Shown here: positions 57,084-64,000 of the stretch, piece by piece | How positions within the stretch are numbered: the first letter of the stretch is position 1 | Layout of the letters: every line of letters starts with the position of its first letter | From: Arcticibacter eurypsychrophilus | GTDB lineage: Bacteria; Bacteroidota; Bacteroidia; Sphingobacteriales; Sphingobacteriaceae | Assembly: GCF_001730525.1 (NCBI RefSeq) | Contig: NZ_MDFN01000013.1 | Coordinates: 62,001-126,000 of the forward strand | Direction: 5' to 3' | DNA: 64,000 nt | Notes under the pieces: generated by a model | Told to the model about the DNA's origin: nothing | The model's input: only the letters and a program-made list of their open reading frames with translations | Database searches by the model: none | Made by a program: the position numbers and the translations under genes

Positions 57084-57091
57084 TACATTTG
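57084..57091 (+). promoter_or_regulatory. -7 promoter element of the riboswitch-SusCD operon
   Basis: TACATTTG matches TAnnTTTG and lies 37 bases before the riboswitch. A TTG is present upstream but at 27 bases, longer than usual, so the -33 element is uncertain. Confidence 0.5.
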
Positions 57092-57120
57092 TCGCATTAC
57101 AAACACGTTCTTTTAAATAC

Positions 57121-57205
57121 TTATTAAGAAAGACCGAGGGATAAGGCCCGAAGACGTCTTAGCAACCTACGTCTGCAGGCGAAAGGTGCTAAATCCTTTC
57201 AGGAA
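57121..57205 (+). promoter_or_regulatory. SAM-I riboswitch (S-box)
   Basis: The conserved core of the class I S-adenosylmethionine riboswitch is present in order: GAGGGATAAGGCCCGAAGA, then TTAGCAACC (Bacteroidota members often have TTAGCAACC where Firmicutes have CGGCAACC), a variable hairpin loop, and AAGGTGCTAAATCC. GAAAG at 57128-57132 can pair with CTTTC at 57196-57200 to form P1. It senses SAM and normally lowers expression of sulfur amino-acid genes when SAM is high. The next genes on the strand are a poly-Cys leader frame and the SusC gene; no clear terminator follows, so the output mechanism is not evident. Confidence 0.92.
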
Positions 57206-57320
57206 TATTAATGCTACTGAAATGATAAGTGAACAGTTTCCCAATATATTAACAAAGAACATTGCTTCATTTCGTTTTCCTCTTCCCATCGTCATTTCTT
57301 GATTATTAACAAAAAAAACA

Positions 57321-57395
57321 ATGACACGAAAAACTTTTTCATCTAACTCCCCTATGTATATTCCTATAATGTGCTGTTGTTGCTGTATGCCCTGA
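57321..57395 (+). CDS. Poly-cysteine leader peptide 1
   Basis: A short frame from ATG 57321 to TGA 57393-57395 encodes 24 residues. It begins MTRKTFSSNSPM and ends IMCCCCCMP: five Cys codons in a row (TGC TGT TGT TGC TGT) flanked by Met codons. It lies 116 bases after the riboswitch and 61 bases before the SusC start, the position of an attenuation leader. Translation would stall when charged Cys-tRNA (and perhaps Met-tRNA) is scarce. Poly-Cys upstream frames that control sulfur genes are known in mycobacteria; in Bacteroidota I know of no established case. Regulation is inference. Confidence 0.75.
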   Translation: MTRKTFSSNSPMYIPIMCCCCCMP

Positions 57396-57456: not shown

Positions 57457-60400
57457 ATGTTTAAAAAATTATTTTTAACAGGTTTTCTTCTGTCCATACT
57501 TTTATGTCAATTAAATGCCCAATCCTCAAAGGTCGAGGGTGTAGTGCTCTCTAAATCTGATGGTTTAACGATACCTGGTGTTAGTGTTTCAATTAAAGGA
57601 AAGCCCATTGCACTTCAAACCGATGCCAATGGTAAGTTTTCAGTAAATGCTGCAGTAAATGATCTTCTTGTATTTTCTTCTATAGGGTACAACCCACAAG
57701 AAGTATTGGTTAAAGCACATTCAAGCAATCTTAAAATTGTATTGGAAGATGCACAGAACTTTTTAAATGAAGTGGTGGTAACTGCCTTAAATATTTCAAA
57801 AGAAAAGAAATCGCTAGGTTATTCCATTCAGGAAGTAAAAGGGGCACAAATTGCAGAGGCAAGGGAAAACAATTTTATTAAGGCCTTATCAGGAAAAATT
57901 GCCGGTGTACAGGTAACCAATAGCCAGGGTAATATGGGTTCAGCCCGCATCATTATTCGTGGGGAAACTTCAATTGCTGGCAACAACCAGCCTTTGTTTG
58001 TGGTCGATGGTGTACCTGTTGATAATTCGCAACAGGGCACAGGAGGCACAAGGGATTGGGCAAATGCTATTGCCGATATCAATTCGGAAGATATAGAATC
58101 TGTGAGTGTCTTAAAAGGTCCCAATGCTGCCGCTTTATATGGTTCACGCGCTGCGGCAGGTGTGATATTAATCAAAACCAAAACAGGAAAAGGAAAACAA
58201 GGAATAGGCATCACCATTAATTCAAATAATACTTTTGACCAGATTGCGCTGCTGCCAACGTATCAGAATATATACGGACAAGGAGCTGATGGAAACTTTA
58301 GCTTTAAAGATGGTAAAGGTGGGGGTGTTAATGATGGTGTAGACGAAAGCTGGGGTCCTAAAATGGACGGTCGCCTAATCCCTCAATTTAACTCCAATGG
58401 AGTCCCTGTCCCTTTTATCCCTCACCCAGACAATGTAAAAAGCTTTTTTAAAACTGGGTATTCTCTGAATAATGGGGTAGCTATAGCCAATTCAAGTGAT
58501 AATTTAGATTACCGTTTCTCTTATAATAACAGCGATCAATCGGGTATTACACCCAACACAGCAGTTGGTAAAAACAGCTTTTCCCTCAATACTTCTTATA
58601 AAATCACTCCTGAACTGACACTTACCGCAAATGCAAACTACGTAAGAACCAATACAGATAACCTGCCTAGTGCTGTATTCCGGTCTAATGGGTACATGCT
58701 CCAGTTCACTTGGTTCGGCAGGCAGGTAGACGTCTCTCAATTGAAAAAATATAAAGATGATCAGGGAAATAACATAAACTGGAATAACAGTTACTACGCC
58801 AATCCTTATTTCATCGCATATGAAAATACGGTAACCCAGTTACGCGATCGTCTTATAGGAAATGTAGGATTGAATTATAAAATCACGAAAAACCTGATCG
58901 CTAACTTCCGTACCGGTAATGATTATTATACCGATAGGCGAAAAATCAGAATTGCTTACGGTACCAGCGGAACGCCGAATGGGTCGTATGAAGAAGATGC
59001 CTATACCGTCAATGAAAACAATACAGAGTTCACATTAAACTTTAACAAAAAGCTCTCCGGCGACTTTGCCCTGGATATCCTTGGCGGTGGAAACATCCGA
59101 AGCCAATCCTTTCAGCGTAATAACCAAAAGGCTCCCCGTCTGGCTATTCCAGATGTGTATACCTTAACGAACTCCAGAGATGCACTCATTTCTTCAGGAA
59201 CCTCTACATCTTTAAAAAATTACAGTCTGTTTTCTTCTGCTCAGCTTGGTTTTCGTAATTATGCTTTCCTAAACTTAACTGCCCGTAATGACTGGTCTTC
59301 TACCCTTCCGATTGATCACCTTTCCTATTTTTACCCATCCGTAAATGCCAGTCTGGTGCTTACCGATGCCTTGAACATTCAAAGCAATATACTTACTTAT
59401 GCCAAAATACGCGGAGGCTGGTCTAAAGTAGGGAAAGATACAGATCCCTATAACCTGATTGACGCTTACGGCTTTAGTGCTCCTTTTAATGGAAATCCGC
59501 AGCTGACGTCTAATGGGATAAAAAAGAACCCTGATCTAAAACCGGAAACCACTACCTCTTCCGAGCTGGGTACTGAACTTGGATTTTTTAAGAACCGCTT
59601 GAAACTGGACTTCAGTTATTATGACATCAACAGCAGCGATCAGATCTTAAGCATTGATGTGAGTCCTACAACTGGTTACAATAAACAATTAGTGAACGCC
59701 GGAAAAATCAATAATAAGGGAGTTGAATTGCAGGTAGGCATCAACCCTATAAAAACGAAGGACTTCAGCTGGGATATAGATTTCAACTTTTCCAGAAACC
59801 GCAGTAAGGTTGTGGAACTTGACAAAGCAGGCTTCCTGACCAGTTATACGATTGGAACAAGCGGAACCGCTCAGGTACTGGCAACCGTTGGTCAACCTTA
59901 CGGAACCTTATTTGGAACAGCCTACCTGAAAGATGCAAATGGAAATACAGTAGTCAATGCAGATGGAACCCCTGCAACAGACCCTTCTTATCATATTTTA
60001 GGGAAATATACACCAGATTGGTTAGGCGGTATAACGAACCGTTTTGGATATAAAGATTTTGACCTGAGCTTCCTGATCGACGTACGTCATGGAGGAGAAA
60101 TTTACTCCAGCACAAATGCTACCGGTAAATACACCGGTATATTGGAATCCACTTTACAAGGCAGAGATGCAGAGCATGGAGGATTAACCTACACGACAGA
60201 CGATAGAATAACACATGATGATGGAATTATAGTGGATGGCGTAACTGCAAGTGGCCAAAAAAACACCCAAATAGTATCCGCACAAAGCTATTACAAAGCA
60301 CTATATAGCATTAATGAGTCAAATACTTACGATGCCTCTTATGTCAAATTAAGAGAAGTAAAACTCGGTTATGCGTTACCTAAAAAGCTAATCAGCAAGG

Positions 60401-60576
60401 TAGGGTTATATGGAGCCACCTTTTCACTGGTTGGTAGGAACCTGTGGATCATCCATAAAAACGCCCCGAATATAGATCCCGAAACAGCTTCAAGCGCTGG
60501 CAATTTTCAGGGAGTTGAATCACTGACATTACCTACAACACGCAGTTTTGGTTTTAACCTTAACCTTAAATTTTAA
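57457..60576 (+). CDS. SusC/RagA-type TonB-linked outer membrane transporter
   Basis: A 1039-residue SusC-family barrel. A signal peptide (LFLTGFLLSILLCQLNAQ) is followed by the carboxypeptidase-D-regulatory-like domain (VEGVVLSKSDGLTIPGVSVSIKGKPIALQTDANGKFSV), the plug (LNEVVVTALNISKEKKSLGYSIQEVKG, PLFVVDGVPVDNSQQG, IESVSVLKGPNAAALYGSRAAAGVILIKTK) and the barrel, ending FNLNLKF. With the SusD-like lipoprotein encoded 10 bases downstream it forms a lidded importer. SusC/D pairs are best known for glycans, but several import peptides. The SAM riboswitch and poly-Cys leader upstream point to a sulfur-containing ligand; no glycoside hydrolase is nearby. Confidence 0.95.
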   Translation: MFKKLFLTGFLLSILLCQLNAQSSKVEGVVLSKSDGLTIPGVSVSIKGKPIALQTDANGKFSVNAAVNDLLVFSSIGYNPQEVLVKAHSSNLKIVLEDAQNFLNEVVVTALNISKEKKSLGYSIQEVKGAQIAEARENNFIKALSGKIAGVQVTNSQGNMGSARIIIRGETSIAGNNQPLFVVDGVPVDNSQQGTGGTRDWANAIADINSEDIESVSVLKGPNAAALYGSRAAAGVILIKTKTGKGKQGIGITINSNNTFDQIALLPTYQNIYGQGADGNFSFKDGKGGGVNDGVDESWGPKMDGRLIPQFNSNGVPVPFIPHPDNVKSFFKTGYSLNNGVAIANSSDNLDYRFSYNNSDQSGITPNTAVGKNSFSLNTSYKITPELTLTANANYVRTNTDNLPSAVFRSNGYMLQFTWFGRQVDVSQLKKYKDDQGNNINWNNSYYANPYFIAYENTVTQLRDRLIGNVGLNYKITKNLIANFRTGNDYYTDRRKIRIAYGTSGTPNGSYEEDAYTVNENNTEFTLNFNKKLSGDFALDILGGGNIRSQSFQRNNQKAPRLAIPDVYTLTNSRDALISSGTSTSLKNYSLFSSAQLGFRNYAFLNLTARNDWSSTLPIDHLSYFYPSVNASLVLTDALNIQSNILTYAKIRGGWSKVGKDTDPYNLIDAYGFSAPFNGNPQLTSNGIKKNPDLKPETTTSSELGTELGFFKNRLKLDFSYYDINSSDQILSIDVSPTTGYNKQLVNAGKINNKGVELQVGINPIKTKDFSWDIDFNFSRNRSKVVELDKAGFLTSYTIGTSGTAQVLATVGQPYGTLFGTAYLKDANGNTVVNADGTPATDPSYHILGKYTPDWLGGITNRFGYKDFDLSFLIDVRHGGEIYSSTNATGKYTGILESTLQGRDAEHGGLTYTTDDRITHDDGIIVDGVTASGQKNTQIVSAQSYYKALYSINESNTYDASYVKLREVKLGYALPKKLISKVGLYGATFSLVGRNLWIIHKNAPNIDPETASSAGNFQGVESLTLPTTRSFGFNLNLKF

Positions 60577-60586
60577 AGAATCTACT

Positions 60587-62026
60587 ATGAACCGAAATAT
60601 ATTTCTTCTCAGCATATTCATTACAACATTAGCTGGTTTCAGTGGATGTAAAGATGAACTTTCCGATATCAATAAGAATCCAAATGAAGCAACTGTACCT
60701 CAGCCGGCTTATTTGCTCACCAGTACAATAAGAACGGCTTCAGATCAATATTGGGGGGTAACCAATAATATGGGGTCAAGCCTTCTTTTTGTTCAGCATT
60801 GGGCCATGGTGCAATATACTGATCCCGACCGCTATGTTTTTACCCCCAATAGTTTCACTAGCGGCTGGTCCAGCTGGTACGCAACCTGTATTGCACAGTT
60901 AAAAACCATTAATTCGCTTGGTGAGGCTTCTGGAAACAACAATTATCAAGGAGTTTCACTGGTACTCCAGGCATGGGTCTATTCCTTGCTGACCGAAACC
61001 TATGGAGACATTCCCTATTCTCAAGCCAATTCCATCACGGAGTACCTTACGCCTGTTTATGATAGCCAGGAAGATGTCTATAAGGGCTTATTGAATGATT
61101 TAAAACAAGCTCAAACCTTACTGAAGGTCGACGGACCGGCTATTAGCGGAGATGTTATTTATAACGGAAATATCTTAAATTGGAAGAAGCTTGCCAATTC
61201 TCTCCGCTTACGTCTTGCCCTGCGTATTGCAGACCGCCTTCCAGCAACCACTCAAACTGTCATTAATGAAATCCAACAGGAAGGAAGTGGTTATATTTCT
61301 TCAAATGCCGAAAACGCTAAACTGGACTATCAGGACGCTCCTTACCAAAACCCGGTATATCTTTCCTTTTTCACAAGGCAGGATTACAGAATCAGTAAAA
61401 CCATAGTGGACAAGCTGTTCGAGTTGAATGACCCCCGGCTTCCTGTTTATGCCACTCCAACAACAATTCCGAGTACCCAATTATACATAGGTCTTTCCAA
61501 TGGGCTTACTACAAGTGAGGCCAGTAATATTGGTTTTGACAATGTATCATTGCCTGGAGCATATTTCAGAGCAGTAAAAGCTCCTTCTGTCATTATTAGT
61601 AATGCCGAAGTATTGTTCTTTTTAGCTGAAGCCTCCAGTCGCGGTTTTATTCAGGATGATGCAGCTACATTATATAAAAATGCAATTCGCGCCTCGTTAG
61701 GACAATATGGAATAGGTACGGTTGCTACCGAACAATACATCAATCAGCCCAGCATAACATTCGATCCCATAAACTATAAAAAGTCAATTGGTGAACAAAA
61801 ATGGATTGCTCTCTTTGGACAGGGACTTGAGGCCTTTTCTGAATGGCGCCGTTTAGACTATCCACAATTAGTTCCTGCTAAAACAGGTGTGCTGGGCGGG
61901 AAGATTCCAGTACGTTTTCTTTATCCCGGAACAGAACAATCTCTAAACGGAGTTAACTATAAAGCCGCTGTGTCCCATCAAGGTGTAGATGCATTAACTA
62001 CAAAACTTTGGTTTGACGTAAATTAA
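60587..62026 (+). CDS. SusD/RagB-type surface lipoprotein
   Basis: A 479-residue partner of the SusC protein, in the SusD-like_2 group. The lipoprotein signal reads NIFLLSIFITTLAGFSGCKD (lipobox FSGC|K). Early conserved parts are DINKNPNEATVPQPAYLLTSTIRTASDQYWG and the TPR-like helices around LVLQAWVYSLLTETYGDIPYSQA; further on are VYKGLLNDLKQAQTLL and EVLFFLAEASSRGFI. The C-terminal EQKWIALFGQGLEAFSEWRRLDYP is diagnostic. It captures the ligand at the cell surface and caps the SusC barrel. The ATG at 60587 is chosen as it gives the signal peptide; an earlier in-frame GTG lies inside susC. Confidence 0.95.
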   Translation: MNRNIFLLSIFITTLAGFSGCKDELSDINKNPNEATVPQPAYLLTSTIRTASDQYWGVTNNMGSSLLFVQHWAMVQYTDPDRYVFTPNSFTSGWSSWYATCIAQLKTINSLGEASGNNNYQGVSLVLQAWVYSLLTETYGDIPYSQANSITEYLTPVYDSQEDVYKGLLNDLKQAQTLLKVDGPAISGDVIYNGNILNWKKLANSLRLRLALRIADRLPATTQTVINEIQQEGSGYISSNAENAKLDYQDAPYQNPVYLSFFTRQDYRISKTIVDKLFELNDPRLPVYATPTTIPSTQLYIGLSNGLTTSEASNIGFDNVSLPGAYFRAVKAPSVIISNAEVLFFLAEASSRGFIQDDAATLYKNAIRASLGQYGIGTVATEQYINQPSITFDPINYKKSIGEQKWIALFGQGLEAFSEWRRLDYPQLVPAKTGVLGGKIPVRFLYPGTEQSLNGVNYKAAVSHQGVDALTTKLWFDVN

Positions 62027-62036
62027 TATAACAGCT

Positions 62037-62594
62037 ATGAAAAAACTAATTTTAGTACTAGTGGTATTTGCCACTTTCCATTCCAGTGTTTCCTTTGCAC
62101 AGACTGATCAGAATACTGATGACAGGGGCTATCTGGTAAAAGTTGGCGATCAGGCTCCCGATGATTTTGAATTAATCTTAACTGATGGGACAAAAACAAA
62201 CCTGAAAAGTCTACGTGGAAAAGTAGTTGTTCTTCAATTTACAGCCAGCTGGTGCAGCGTTTGCCGCGAAGAAATGCCTTATTTGGAAAAAGAAGTATGG
62301 CAGGCAAACAAAGATAATGGACTTGTTCTGATTGGTGTTGACCGGGATGAACCATTAAACAAAGTGCAGAAGTTTAAACAGGACATGAAAATATCCTATC
62401 CTTTGGCACTTGATCCTGGAGCGGATATCTTTGGCCGTTTTGCCCATAAAAAGAGTGGAGTAACTCGCAACGTAGTGATTGATCGAAATGGGAAAATCGT
62501 ATTCCTAACCCGCTTATACGCTCCAGCAGAATTCAATCAAATGGTCAGTTTTATCAATAACCTGGTACAGCCCAATAGCGCAAAGGCTAACTAA
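62037..62594 (+). CDS. TlpA-like thiol-disulfide oxidoreductase
   Basis: A 185-residue exported thioredoxin-fold protein. The signal peptide is KKLILVLVVFATFHSSVSFAQ; the redox site is FTASWCSVCREEMPYL, a CSVC variant of W-C-x-x-C, and the cis-Pro region is KSGVTRNVVIDRNGKIVFL. Redoxins of this type reduce or isomerise disulfides in the periplasm. It is 10 bases downstream of susD, so it is in the riboswitch operon. A periplasmic disulfide reductase next to an importer under a SAM riboswitch and a poly-Cys leader suggests that the ligand may carry a disulfide, such as cystine or a cysteine-containing peptide; that is inference. Confidence 0.93.
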   Translation: MKKLILVLVVFATFHSSVSFAQTDQNTDDRGYLVKVGDQAPDDFELILTDGTKTNLKSLRGKVVVLQFTASWCSVCREEMPYLEKEVWQANKDNGLVLIGVDRDEPLNKVQKFKQDMKISYPLALDPGADIFGRFAHKKSGVTRNVVIDRNGKIVFLTRLYAPAEFNQMVSFINNLVQPNSAKAN

Positions 62595-63030
62595 GCCGAT
62601 TATAAATTGACCAAAATATAAATAAACAATAATCATCAGCTAAAATGAATAATGACCCTGGAAGCATACCATTGAATCCAACTCCTCTTATCTTGGATTC
62701 TTTTGTTCTTTACAGTCTTTATTTCACTGATGATTATTGTTTTATTTATAACTCCTATTTCAGAAAAGCTAATTTACTTTAATAAAAGCAGTCATTACCT
62801 TTTTACATCTATTTTGATGTTAGTATATATTAGCCTGGACCTGTTTTTATTTCATGTTATCCCCCTTAAAATCATTAACCCAAAATAGAGAAAACAATAG
62901 TTCAATATACCTGTTGAAACAAAATCTACAATTTCTATAGATTTAATTTGTAATATTTAAAAGATTACTATATTTGCTGAAGAATCACCCGTTTCAAAAC
63001 ATTAAAAGACTGTTTACAACATTAAATCAA
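62595..63030 (+). other. Intergenic region with possible small membrane ORF and promoter
   Basis: A frame from TTG 62703 to 62888 could encode 61 residues with two hydrophobic helices (FTVFISLMIIVLFITP and YLFTSILMLVYISLDLFLFHV), but no ATG precedes it and the start is unclear. An overlapping ATG frame at 62644 is only 45 codons. After it, a promoter is seen: TTTG at 62947-62950, 18 bases, TATATTTG at 62969-62976. This would start a transcript at about 62983, carrying poly-Cys leader 2. Confidence 0.5.
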
Positions 63031-63120
63031 ATGATAAAAGATTTACATTTTCTTATAATAAAAACAGAAACACCTAGAGAAGAAATACACCCACATTTAG
63101 ACTGCTGCTGTTGTTGTTGA
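63031..63120 (+). CDS. Poly-cysteine leader peptide 2
   Basis: A frame from ATG 63031 to TGA 63118-63120 encodes 29 residues, beginning MIKDLHFLIIKTETP and ending HPHLDCCCCC directly before the stop: TGC TGC TGT TGT TGT TGA. Five terminal Cys codons are expected to stall ribosomes at the end of the frame when Cys-tRNA is low. It is placed about 48 bases after the predicted transcript start and 195 bases before the next TonB receptor gene. Apart from the Cys run it shares no clear sequence with leader 1, so the Cys run itself is the conserved element. Confidence 0.72.
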   Translation: MIKDLHFLIIKTETPREEIHPHLDCCCCC

Positions 63121-63314: not shown

Positions 63315-64000
63315 ATGAAAAAAAGTTTACTTATTCTCTTTTCAGTTTTACTCACGATAGGCTATGCCTCTGCCCAAAACGTAGTAACTGGAATAATAAA
63401 GAATGCTAAAGGCGTTCCTGTTCCAAATGCTACTTTGCTGATAAGAGGTACTAACATATCTGTGAGTGCAGATGAAAACGGCTCTTTCCGTATTATTTCA
63501 AAGCAAGAGCCTCCATTCTATATTCGGGTTAGTTCAGTCGGTTATAAACCACAGGACTTTCAGATTCTTAAACTTCAGGATACACCTTTAGAACTGGTTC
63601 TGATAGAAAATTCGGAACTTGATGAAATTGTTGTCACCTCAAGAAGACGCTCAGAGGCCCTACAAGACGTACCTATTCCAATTTCGGTGGTCGGTGGTAC
63701 CAAGCTTGATGAATCTGGTGCTTTCAATGTAAACAGGGTAAAAGAACTTGTTCCTTCGGTTCAGTTCTATTCCTCCAACCCCCGCAATACCACTTTAAAT
63801 ATCCGTGGATTGGGTTCTACGTTCGGACTAACCAATGATGGGATCGATCAGGGCGTAGGTTTCTACGTAGACGGGGTATATTATGCACGTCCTGCCGCAG
63901 GTACATTAGATTTTATTGATGTAGAGCGAATTGAGGTTCTGCGAGGACCCCAAGGAACATTATTCGGTAAAAACACCAGTTCTGGTGCCATCAATATAAT
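63315..64000 (+). CDS. Partial TonB-dependent receptor, C-terminus outside window
   Basis: An open frame from ATG 63315 runs off the right edge after 228 codons. A signal peptide (MKKSLLILFSVLLTIGYASAQ) is followed by a carboxypeptidase-D-regulatory-like domain (GIIKNAKGVPVPNATLLIRGT) and then the plug: the TonB-box-like LDEIVVTSRR, VPIPISVVGG, TTLNIRGLGSTFG, VGFYVDGVYYARP and IEVLRGPQGTLFGKNTSSGA. The plug is of the siderophore/cobalamin-receptor kind and not SusC. With the poly-Cys leader upstream it may serve uptake of a sulfur-containing compound. The barrel cannot be judged. Confidence 0.93.
   Translation, partial: MKKSLLILFSVLLTIGYASAQNVVTGIIKNAKGVPVPNATLLIRGTNISVSADENGSFRIISKQEPPFYIRVSSVGYKPQDFQILKLQDTPLELVLIENSELDEIVVTSRRRSEALQDVPIPISVVGGTKLDESGAFNVNRVKELVPSVQFYSSNPRNTTLNIRGLGSTFGLTNDGIDQGVGFYVDGVYYARPAAGTLDFIDVERIEVLRGPQGTLFGKNTSSGAINI

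Follow-up and report, generated by a model that had tools for sequence, protein, structure and literature searches.

A short open reading frame with five consecutive Cys codons, lying between a SAM-I riboswitch and a susC operon of Arcticibacter eurypsychrophilus, is probably a translated leader ORF that senses Cys- and Met-tRNA, often in series with SAM sensing. Frames with the same codon signature recur in front of susC orthologues, in front of metY and, less regularly, in front of a second TonB receptor gene. The window, i.e. the whole stretch of DNA analysed, comprised 64,000 nucleotides, and all features given below by position alone are on its forward strand.

Leader frame 1 (57321-57395) reads MTRKTFSSNSPMYIPIMCCCCCMP followed by a stop codon. 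Its Cys run, read from the sequence as TGC TGT TGT TGC TGT (57372-57386), has an ATG codon on each side. A SAM-I riboswitch aptamer was matched upstream at 57118-57231 (Rfam RF00162, E 5e-15) with a score above the gathering score (72.5 vs 44.4 bits), and the frame begins 89 bases downstream of its end. The operon downstream encodes a SusC/RagA TonB-linked outer-membrane protein (susC, 57457-60576; TIGR04056, 634.5 bits, above the cut-off), a SusD-like lipoprotein (60587-62026; PF12771, E 1.7e-112) and a redoxin/TlpA-like thiol-disulfide protein (62037-62594; PF08534, E 4.2e-25). The analysis confirmed the frame as originally predicted, with 24 codons, five Cys codons between Met codons and 61 bases from its stop to the susC ATG (57457), and also its placement between a SAM riboswitch and a SusC/SusD operon. 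A candidate -7 promoter element, TACATTTG, was read at 57084-57091 from its match to TAnnTTTG, which we take to be the Bacteroidota -7 promoter consensus. The leader transcript would be predicted from this element to start near 57098.

The window contains a second frame of this kind, which the original prediction did not mention. Leader frame 2 (63031-63120) reads MIKDLHFLIIKTETPREEIHPHLDCCCCC before its stop and thus ends in LDCCCCC. The candidate promoter element TATATTTG at 62969-62976 fits the same presumed consensus, with a TTTG upstream at 62947-62950. The frame is separated by 194 bases from the start of a TonB-dependent receptor gene (63315-63998, running past the window end; PF00593/PF07715), which is followed beyond the window by a methionine aminotransferase gene (NF006569, above the cut-off). 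Conservation of the Cys frame among the orthologues of this receptor is patchy: a Cys-rich frame was found in 10 of 42 upstream regions, compared with a shuffled mean of 0.32, after 5 of 47 loci had been dropped where the script chose too early a start, and under a 260-nt limit that missed the window's own frame 2. Rfam matched no SAM aptamer at the 20 loci scanned of these 47.

In the whole genome (4.69 Mb), five consecutive TGY codons occurred at seven sites and the reversed pattern at none. Three of the seven were stand-alone short Cys frames, two in the window and one before metY, and the remaining four overlapped larger ORFs. Four consecutive TGY codons occurred at 55 distinct sites (62 rows), five of them outside ORFs of at least 100 aa, namely the three leader frames, a frame ending CSCCCC-stop before a PhyH gene, and L042. 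The CSCCCC frame is located at contig C4:130935, outside the window and near the other two leaders, 72 nt 5' of a PhyH dioxygenase-like open frame (L061:9066-9869, minus strand). L042 reads MCCCCYIAH before a small secreted-protein gene and was set aside. A scan of the family Sphingobacteriaceae for five Cys codons and a stop placed 15 of 30 loci outside ORFs of at least 120 aa; 11 of these 15 preceded a metY, susC or TonB gene and 4 were unexplained. Among 26 further stretches of this type, 21 overlapped ORFs of at least 150 aa. At class level, 25 of 29 parsed sites overlapped ORFs of at least 150 aa and the other four had no adjoining sulfur gene; such sites were therefore uninformative, and the upstream regions of orthologues were used instead.

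Among 121 genomes, 17 besides that of the window encode a susC orthologue with 58-72% identity, and all further matches have at most 43%. Together with the window copy, 12 of 18 loci carried an upstream frame with at least three Cys within its last 12 residues, vs a shuffled mean of 0.23 (maximum 3) and none on the reverse strand. A looser rule counting Cys and Met, applied without shuffles, was passed by 16 of the 18, and a single earlier rule by 9 of 18 orthologues vs 0 of 12 paralogues (39-43% identity, L141-L152). The 12 loci with at least three Cys do not include the closest orthologue, L124 with 72% identity: its frame ends in MCGSFISCM, with two Cys near the end, and no riboswitch was found there. 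L130 and L135 fail both Cys rules, L130 having a frame without the tail. The conservation that the original prediction had called for was thus found in two-thirds of the susC loci, but the run itself is missing at L124, L130 and L135. An Rfam aptamer was present at 13 of 18 loci. At some loci a redoxin gene (L129/L373) or a NifS-like gene (G055) lies between the aptamer and the Cys frame, and the frame stands directly 5' of susC even where the aptamer is farther away, indicating that the leader travels with susC and not with the aptamer. At L371 and L373, the SAM riboswitch precedes a NifS-like cysteine desulfurase or redoxin gene, with susC farther down the same stretch. At L360 (genome G004), a frame reading MKNNQLINKQPMCCCCC up to its stop lies 78 nt 5' of another SusC-like gene, and roughly 1.5 kb upstream a SAM riboswitch precedes a sulfhydrylase-like gene (L396).

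The evidence from sequence comparison for a putative leader is strongest at metY. The third leader of the genome, ending in MTSSCCCCC, lies behind a SAM riboswitch and 104 bases before metY, in an operon with the order metY (TIGR01326, above the cut-off), metX (best match MetX, below the cut-off) and hom (PRK06349, above the cut-off). In 101 genomes of the family, 73 metY orthologues with at least 72% identity were collected and a start was recognised in 69; L192, L195, L217 and L223, with no recognised start, were dropped. The SAM riboswitch pattern was present at 61 of the 69 loci. This pattern agreed with Rfam in about 38 family loci run through both; in other families it overlooked aptamers, and in L320 it overlooked a distant one. 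At 60 of the 69 loci, a frame of 19-49 codons starts with the first ATG behind the aptamer, 8-19 nt, mostly 9-12 nt, past the P1 TATAAA; at the 61st aptamer locus (L203), the aptamer stands right at metY without a leader. The distance from aptamer end to leader AUG was 8, 9 and 11 nt in L093, L108 and L115 (Rfam ends, script starts), and the gaps between leader and metY were 70-156 nt. The last 14 residues of the 60 leaders contain 29% Cys and 12% Met, vs 1.4% and 0.6% in the body, with at least three Cys in 50 of 60 tails and at least three Cys plus Met in 55 of 60. Of the five leaders without a Cys/Met tail, four belong to one genus and end in RMR. The eight family loci without an aptamer had no Cys run, their best frames holding at most three scattered Cys; those of L098 and L224 lie 267-279 nt away.

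Similar results were obtained with relatives from public genomes, a set that overlaps the family set. Aptamer and leader were found by script in 76 of the best 80 metY loci, mostly from Pedobacter and Mucilaginibacter. Within the final 14 residues, all 76 leaders have at least three Cys plus Met and 74 at least three Cys; all 15 of these loci that were scanned with Rfam had the aptamer confirmed. In the other four relatives, Rfam matched no aptamer in L243, L245 and L246 and a distant one in L320. Among 142 metY leaders, six of them from class loci (L326 and L338 were dropped), 131 were distinct, and 110 of the 131 scored in the shuffle test, compared with a shuffled mean of 1.5. An Arg-Met-Cys/Arg motif (often CGAATGYG) recurs in metY, susC and TonB leader tails of several genera, e.g. 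L131, L205 and L236, where it stands instead of or next to the Cys run.

Two hallmarks of leader peptides were present: a short upstream ORF with its own start and stop, in the window frames and the metY leaders, and a codon run for the amino acid of the pathway, as Cys/Met tails before metY, susC and TonB genes. The association of the tail with particular genes was assessed in a survey of SAM riboswitches in the source genome and 15 others, which returned 39 matches, 30 of them with loci and 29 of these parsed. A Cys/Met tail was found at all seven metY loci, and an eighth metY locus outside that parse (L384) has CCCCCC-stop. No Cys/Met leader was found behind the riboswitches of the 10 parsed metH loci, of which two have methionine synthase models as best match (partial, below the whole-protein cut-off) and eight were assigned to metH because they share the start motif. 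A Cys sensor would be sensible at metY, whose product adds sulfur, but not at metH, whose product transfers a methyl group; judged from the sequences, the presence of the leader at metY and its absence at metH fit a sensor of sulfur amino acid supply. In genome G066, two SAM riboswitches (L385, L394) are followed by the Cys-rich frames SCCKRMCCC-stop and HACCKSPQASPMIC-stop and then by other genes, one of them for a TonB plug protein.

Outside the family, a Cys/Met-rich frame within 420 nt of metY was found in 9 of 14 loci by a loose rule without shuffle control; examples end in CCCCCC, CCCCTAA and MCCCCCSSC. Nine of these 14 loci have an aptamer, five have frame and aptamer, and four have a frame without an aptamer. 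L327, L332 and L339 are non-family metY loci with a Cys/Met-rich upstream frame at which no SAM riboswitch was found.

From the observed frame, its conservation, its codon signature and its gene context, we infer the following mode of action. The frame would be translated as a leader ORF whose C-terminal Cys codons, together with Met codons, act as control codons. A shortage of Cys-tRNA or Met-tRNA would slow or stop the ribosome on the run, and the stalled ribosome would keep the leader RNA, or the transcript behind it, in a form that permits the gene for sulfur import or assimilation to be expressed. With both tRNAs plentiful, the leader would be translated completely and downstream expression would drop. 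At susC and metY, the SAM-I riboswitch in front would make the response depend on SAM as well as on Cys- and Met-tRNA. At metY, about 8-11 nt separate the aptamer end from the leader AUG, and SAM may therefore gate leader translation itself. Candidates for the output step would be a terminator, Rho or masking of the start site. More tentatively, and with somewhat less than an even chance of being right, these inputs may form a three-input gate: in many Bacteroidia, the direct target of the metY SAM-I riboswitch would be the start of the control ORF and not that of the enzyme, with SAM setting leader translation and Cys- and Met-tRNA then setting metY expression, and with susC importers controlled in a related form.

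RNA structures were examined with regard to this output step. In the window, no terminator was found on either side of leader frame 1, the accessibility of the susC start was unaffected by a modelled ribosome (0.50-0.51), and the leader fold was not better than shuffles (z -0.82). Neither a terminator nor a structure masking the susC start was found for the window leader. The original prediction of a sensor of Cys and Met supply would agree with a leader kept at susC and metY and absent at metH, but the window copy appears to lack the terminator or start-masking structure through which it might act. Where the aptamer is near susC, a terminator-like site lies between aptamer and leader in six of nine loci (L126, L128, L130, L131, L133, L137) and was not found at the window copy, L134 and L139; in the Pedobacter susC leaders L131 and L133, a second terminator-like site begins within the last Cys codon. 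The intrinsic terminator that follows the leader in a classical attenuator was not found at the window copy, and a terminator-like site 3' of the metY leader was seen in 16 of 131 cases, a count without shuffle control.

Conserved hairpins were found behind the metY leaders of two genera. The Mucilaginibacter-type leaders numbered 28, chosen by tail (alignment A3; alignment A2 comprised 20 picked by eye). Their post-leader hairpin is 89.3% paired over the 28, with 14 double-change cells, a result reached by 0 of 500 shuffles, and its 5' arm is also complementary to the Met-Cys codons (105 of 112 cells). Among 20 of these leaders, ribosome-free folding already favoured the downstream hairpin in 14 (mean 0.64), and the mean rose to 0.84 with a ribosome modelled on the Cys codons; the competing helix won in 2 of 20. 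A simple attenuator switch with mutually exclusive structures may exist in Mucilaginibacter, where the pairing is conserved, but it would be thermodynamically weak, the downstream hairpin being favoured ribosome-free in 14 of 20. The Pedobacter-type alignment (A1) contained 27 of 29 leaders, L103 and L266 being left out by eye. All share a double hairpin after the stop, one helix invariant and one covarying, of the form CUUCC..GGAAG then GGYCYC..GRGRUACG (L256:1011-1125). It shows 22 double-change cells, reached by 0 of 500 shuffles, and a number of covarying pairs that 180 of 500 shuffles reached. In Rfam scans that included these loci, the SAM riboswitch alone was matched. Judged by sequence comparison, the sensing part of the proposal thus appears well supported, and the output step may vary between genera.

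Several other explanations of the Cys run were weighed. The original prediction had called it improbable by chance, and this held for the genome-wide runs as well as for susC. A run arising by chance in an AT-rich spacer would agree with the variability of the susC spacers and with its absence from the closest orthologue and two others, but 12 tails were observed among 18 loci where shuffles gave 0.23, and the genome has two more stand-alone runs, one of them within the window; a chance origin, rejected on the shuffles and the orthologues, is extremely improbable. The TGY run might instead be a conserved RNA or DNA element, either a hairpin arm or a protein site, in which the codons have no meaning. 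The Cys/Met codons of metY leaders do take part in hairpins (UGUGC with GCAUA in Pedobacter, GUGU with ACAC in Mucilaginibacter). Such an element, however, would leave unexplained why the tail shares its reading frame with the first ATG past the aptamer: in the 131 metY leaders, stops by frame numbered 0, 311 and 262, and frame 0, though stop-free by construction, was selected solely as the first ATG past the aptamer. Moreover, TGT and TGC are mixed (336 and 255 of the tail Cys codons), Met codons replace Cys, and run and body change in length by whole codons, all of which makes a non-coding element very unlikely.

Two further alternatives accept translation of the frame and assign it another role. 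Cys clusters are able to bind metals, and the peptide keeps its position across many genera, as would be expected of a trans-acting peptide, for example a small one rich in Cys that binds metal or has a redox function. By eye, however, the body is apparently unconserved between genera, the tail alone is kept, and its form varies between a Cys run, CMCCC and RMR, so that we assign a trans-acting peptide a very low probability. The leader might also set or raise translation of the next gene through coupling or re-initiation, with no sensing of Cys. Termination-reinitiation at riboswitch-linked upstream frames has been shown in M. tuberculosis, according to the available part of that report (PMC11260477). 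Against this, the distances to the next gene, 61 and 194 nt in the window and 70-156 nt at metY, are probably long for re-initiation, which moreover accounts neither for the Cys/Met enrichment of the tail nor for the absence of the leader at metH, and there is little chance that it is the explanation. A translated leader sensing Cys- and Met-tRNA is the reading we prefer. If true, a metabolite riboswitch and control codons for amino acids would work together within a single leader, at a gene central to sulfur metabolism and in a phylum whose RNA-level control is little studied. The same reading would also hint that sulfur compounds are the substrates of a SusC/SusD importer, whose substrate class is seldom readable from sequence alone. 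With metH as a sharp control, bearing a SAM riboswitch without a Cys leader, the proposal would be directly testable on the metY leaders of culturable Pedobacter and Mucilaginibacter.

Poly-Cys leaderless short ORFs were reportedly described in mycobacteria by Canestrari in 2020. The precedent named in the original prediction was borne out, as the available part of one paper places poly-Cys leaderless short ORFs in mycobacteria (PMC9031893), and its statement about Bacteroidota stood, no such case being found in the open-licence literature. That literature yielded nothing on a SAM riboswitch with a leader peptide in Bacteroidetes or Pedobacter or on Cys leaders in Sphingobacteria, and the matches listed for SusC with a SAM riboswitch concerned, by title, other subjects. 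Cys-run leader peptides are also known at cys/cbs operons of Mycobacterium, Propionibacterium and Bifidobacterium, as the accessible sections of a further paper state (PMC1262725). As far as these partial texts go, the present leaders share with the actinobacterial ones a short upstream frame, a run of Cys codons and sulfur genes downstream (PMC9031893, PMC1262725), and with the cys/cbs leaders a run near the stop and missing terminators (PMC1262725). The mycobacterial frames, in contrast, belong to another phylum and are called leaderless in the portion available (PMC9031893), whereas the upstream riboswitch at susC and metY argues against a leaderless type, in which the transcript starts at the first codon. 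The present leaders also intersperse Met codons, stand behind a SAM-I riboswitch at metY and susC, and have outer-membrane importers among their presumed targets.

Other known systems resemble parts of this arrangement. The uORFC-8-2 motif, the cysS leader of Rhodobacterales, likewise has Cys codons in an upstream frame and predicted ribosome-mediated attenuation; according to the excerpted text it differs in having a tandem pair of Cys codons, mostly at positions 14 and 15, in a U run that is present at the 3' end of every case, and in its target, Cys-tRNA synthetase (PMC8632094). The B12 riboswitches of M. tuberculosis similarly unite a riboswitch and a translated upstream frame in a single leader, but with another ligand, in another phylum and with re-initiation at ppe2, and the available part of that report names no amino-acid control codons (PMC11260477). 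Some SAM-I riboswitches hold the ribosome site in P1 and have the start site directly 3' of it, as described in the extract at hand (PMC2258182); the nearest start at metY belongs to the leader frame and not to the enzyme gene. Within Bacteroidota, leader peptides have been proposed from transcript maps, as leader-peptide attenuation in Flavobacterium psychrophilum (PMC9723704) and as short ORFs within long 5' UTRs in Bacteroides thetaiotaomicron (PMC7366714), and the accessible parts of both papers name neither a Cys leader nor a link to a SAM riboswitch. Regulators based on Cys leaders are already known; what appears new here is their probable occurrence in Bacteroidota, the mixing of Cys and Met codons, and the coupling to SAM-I.
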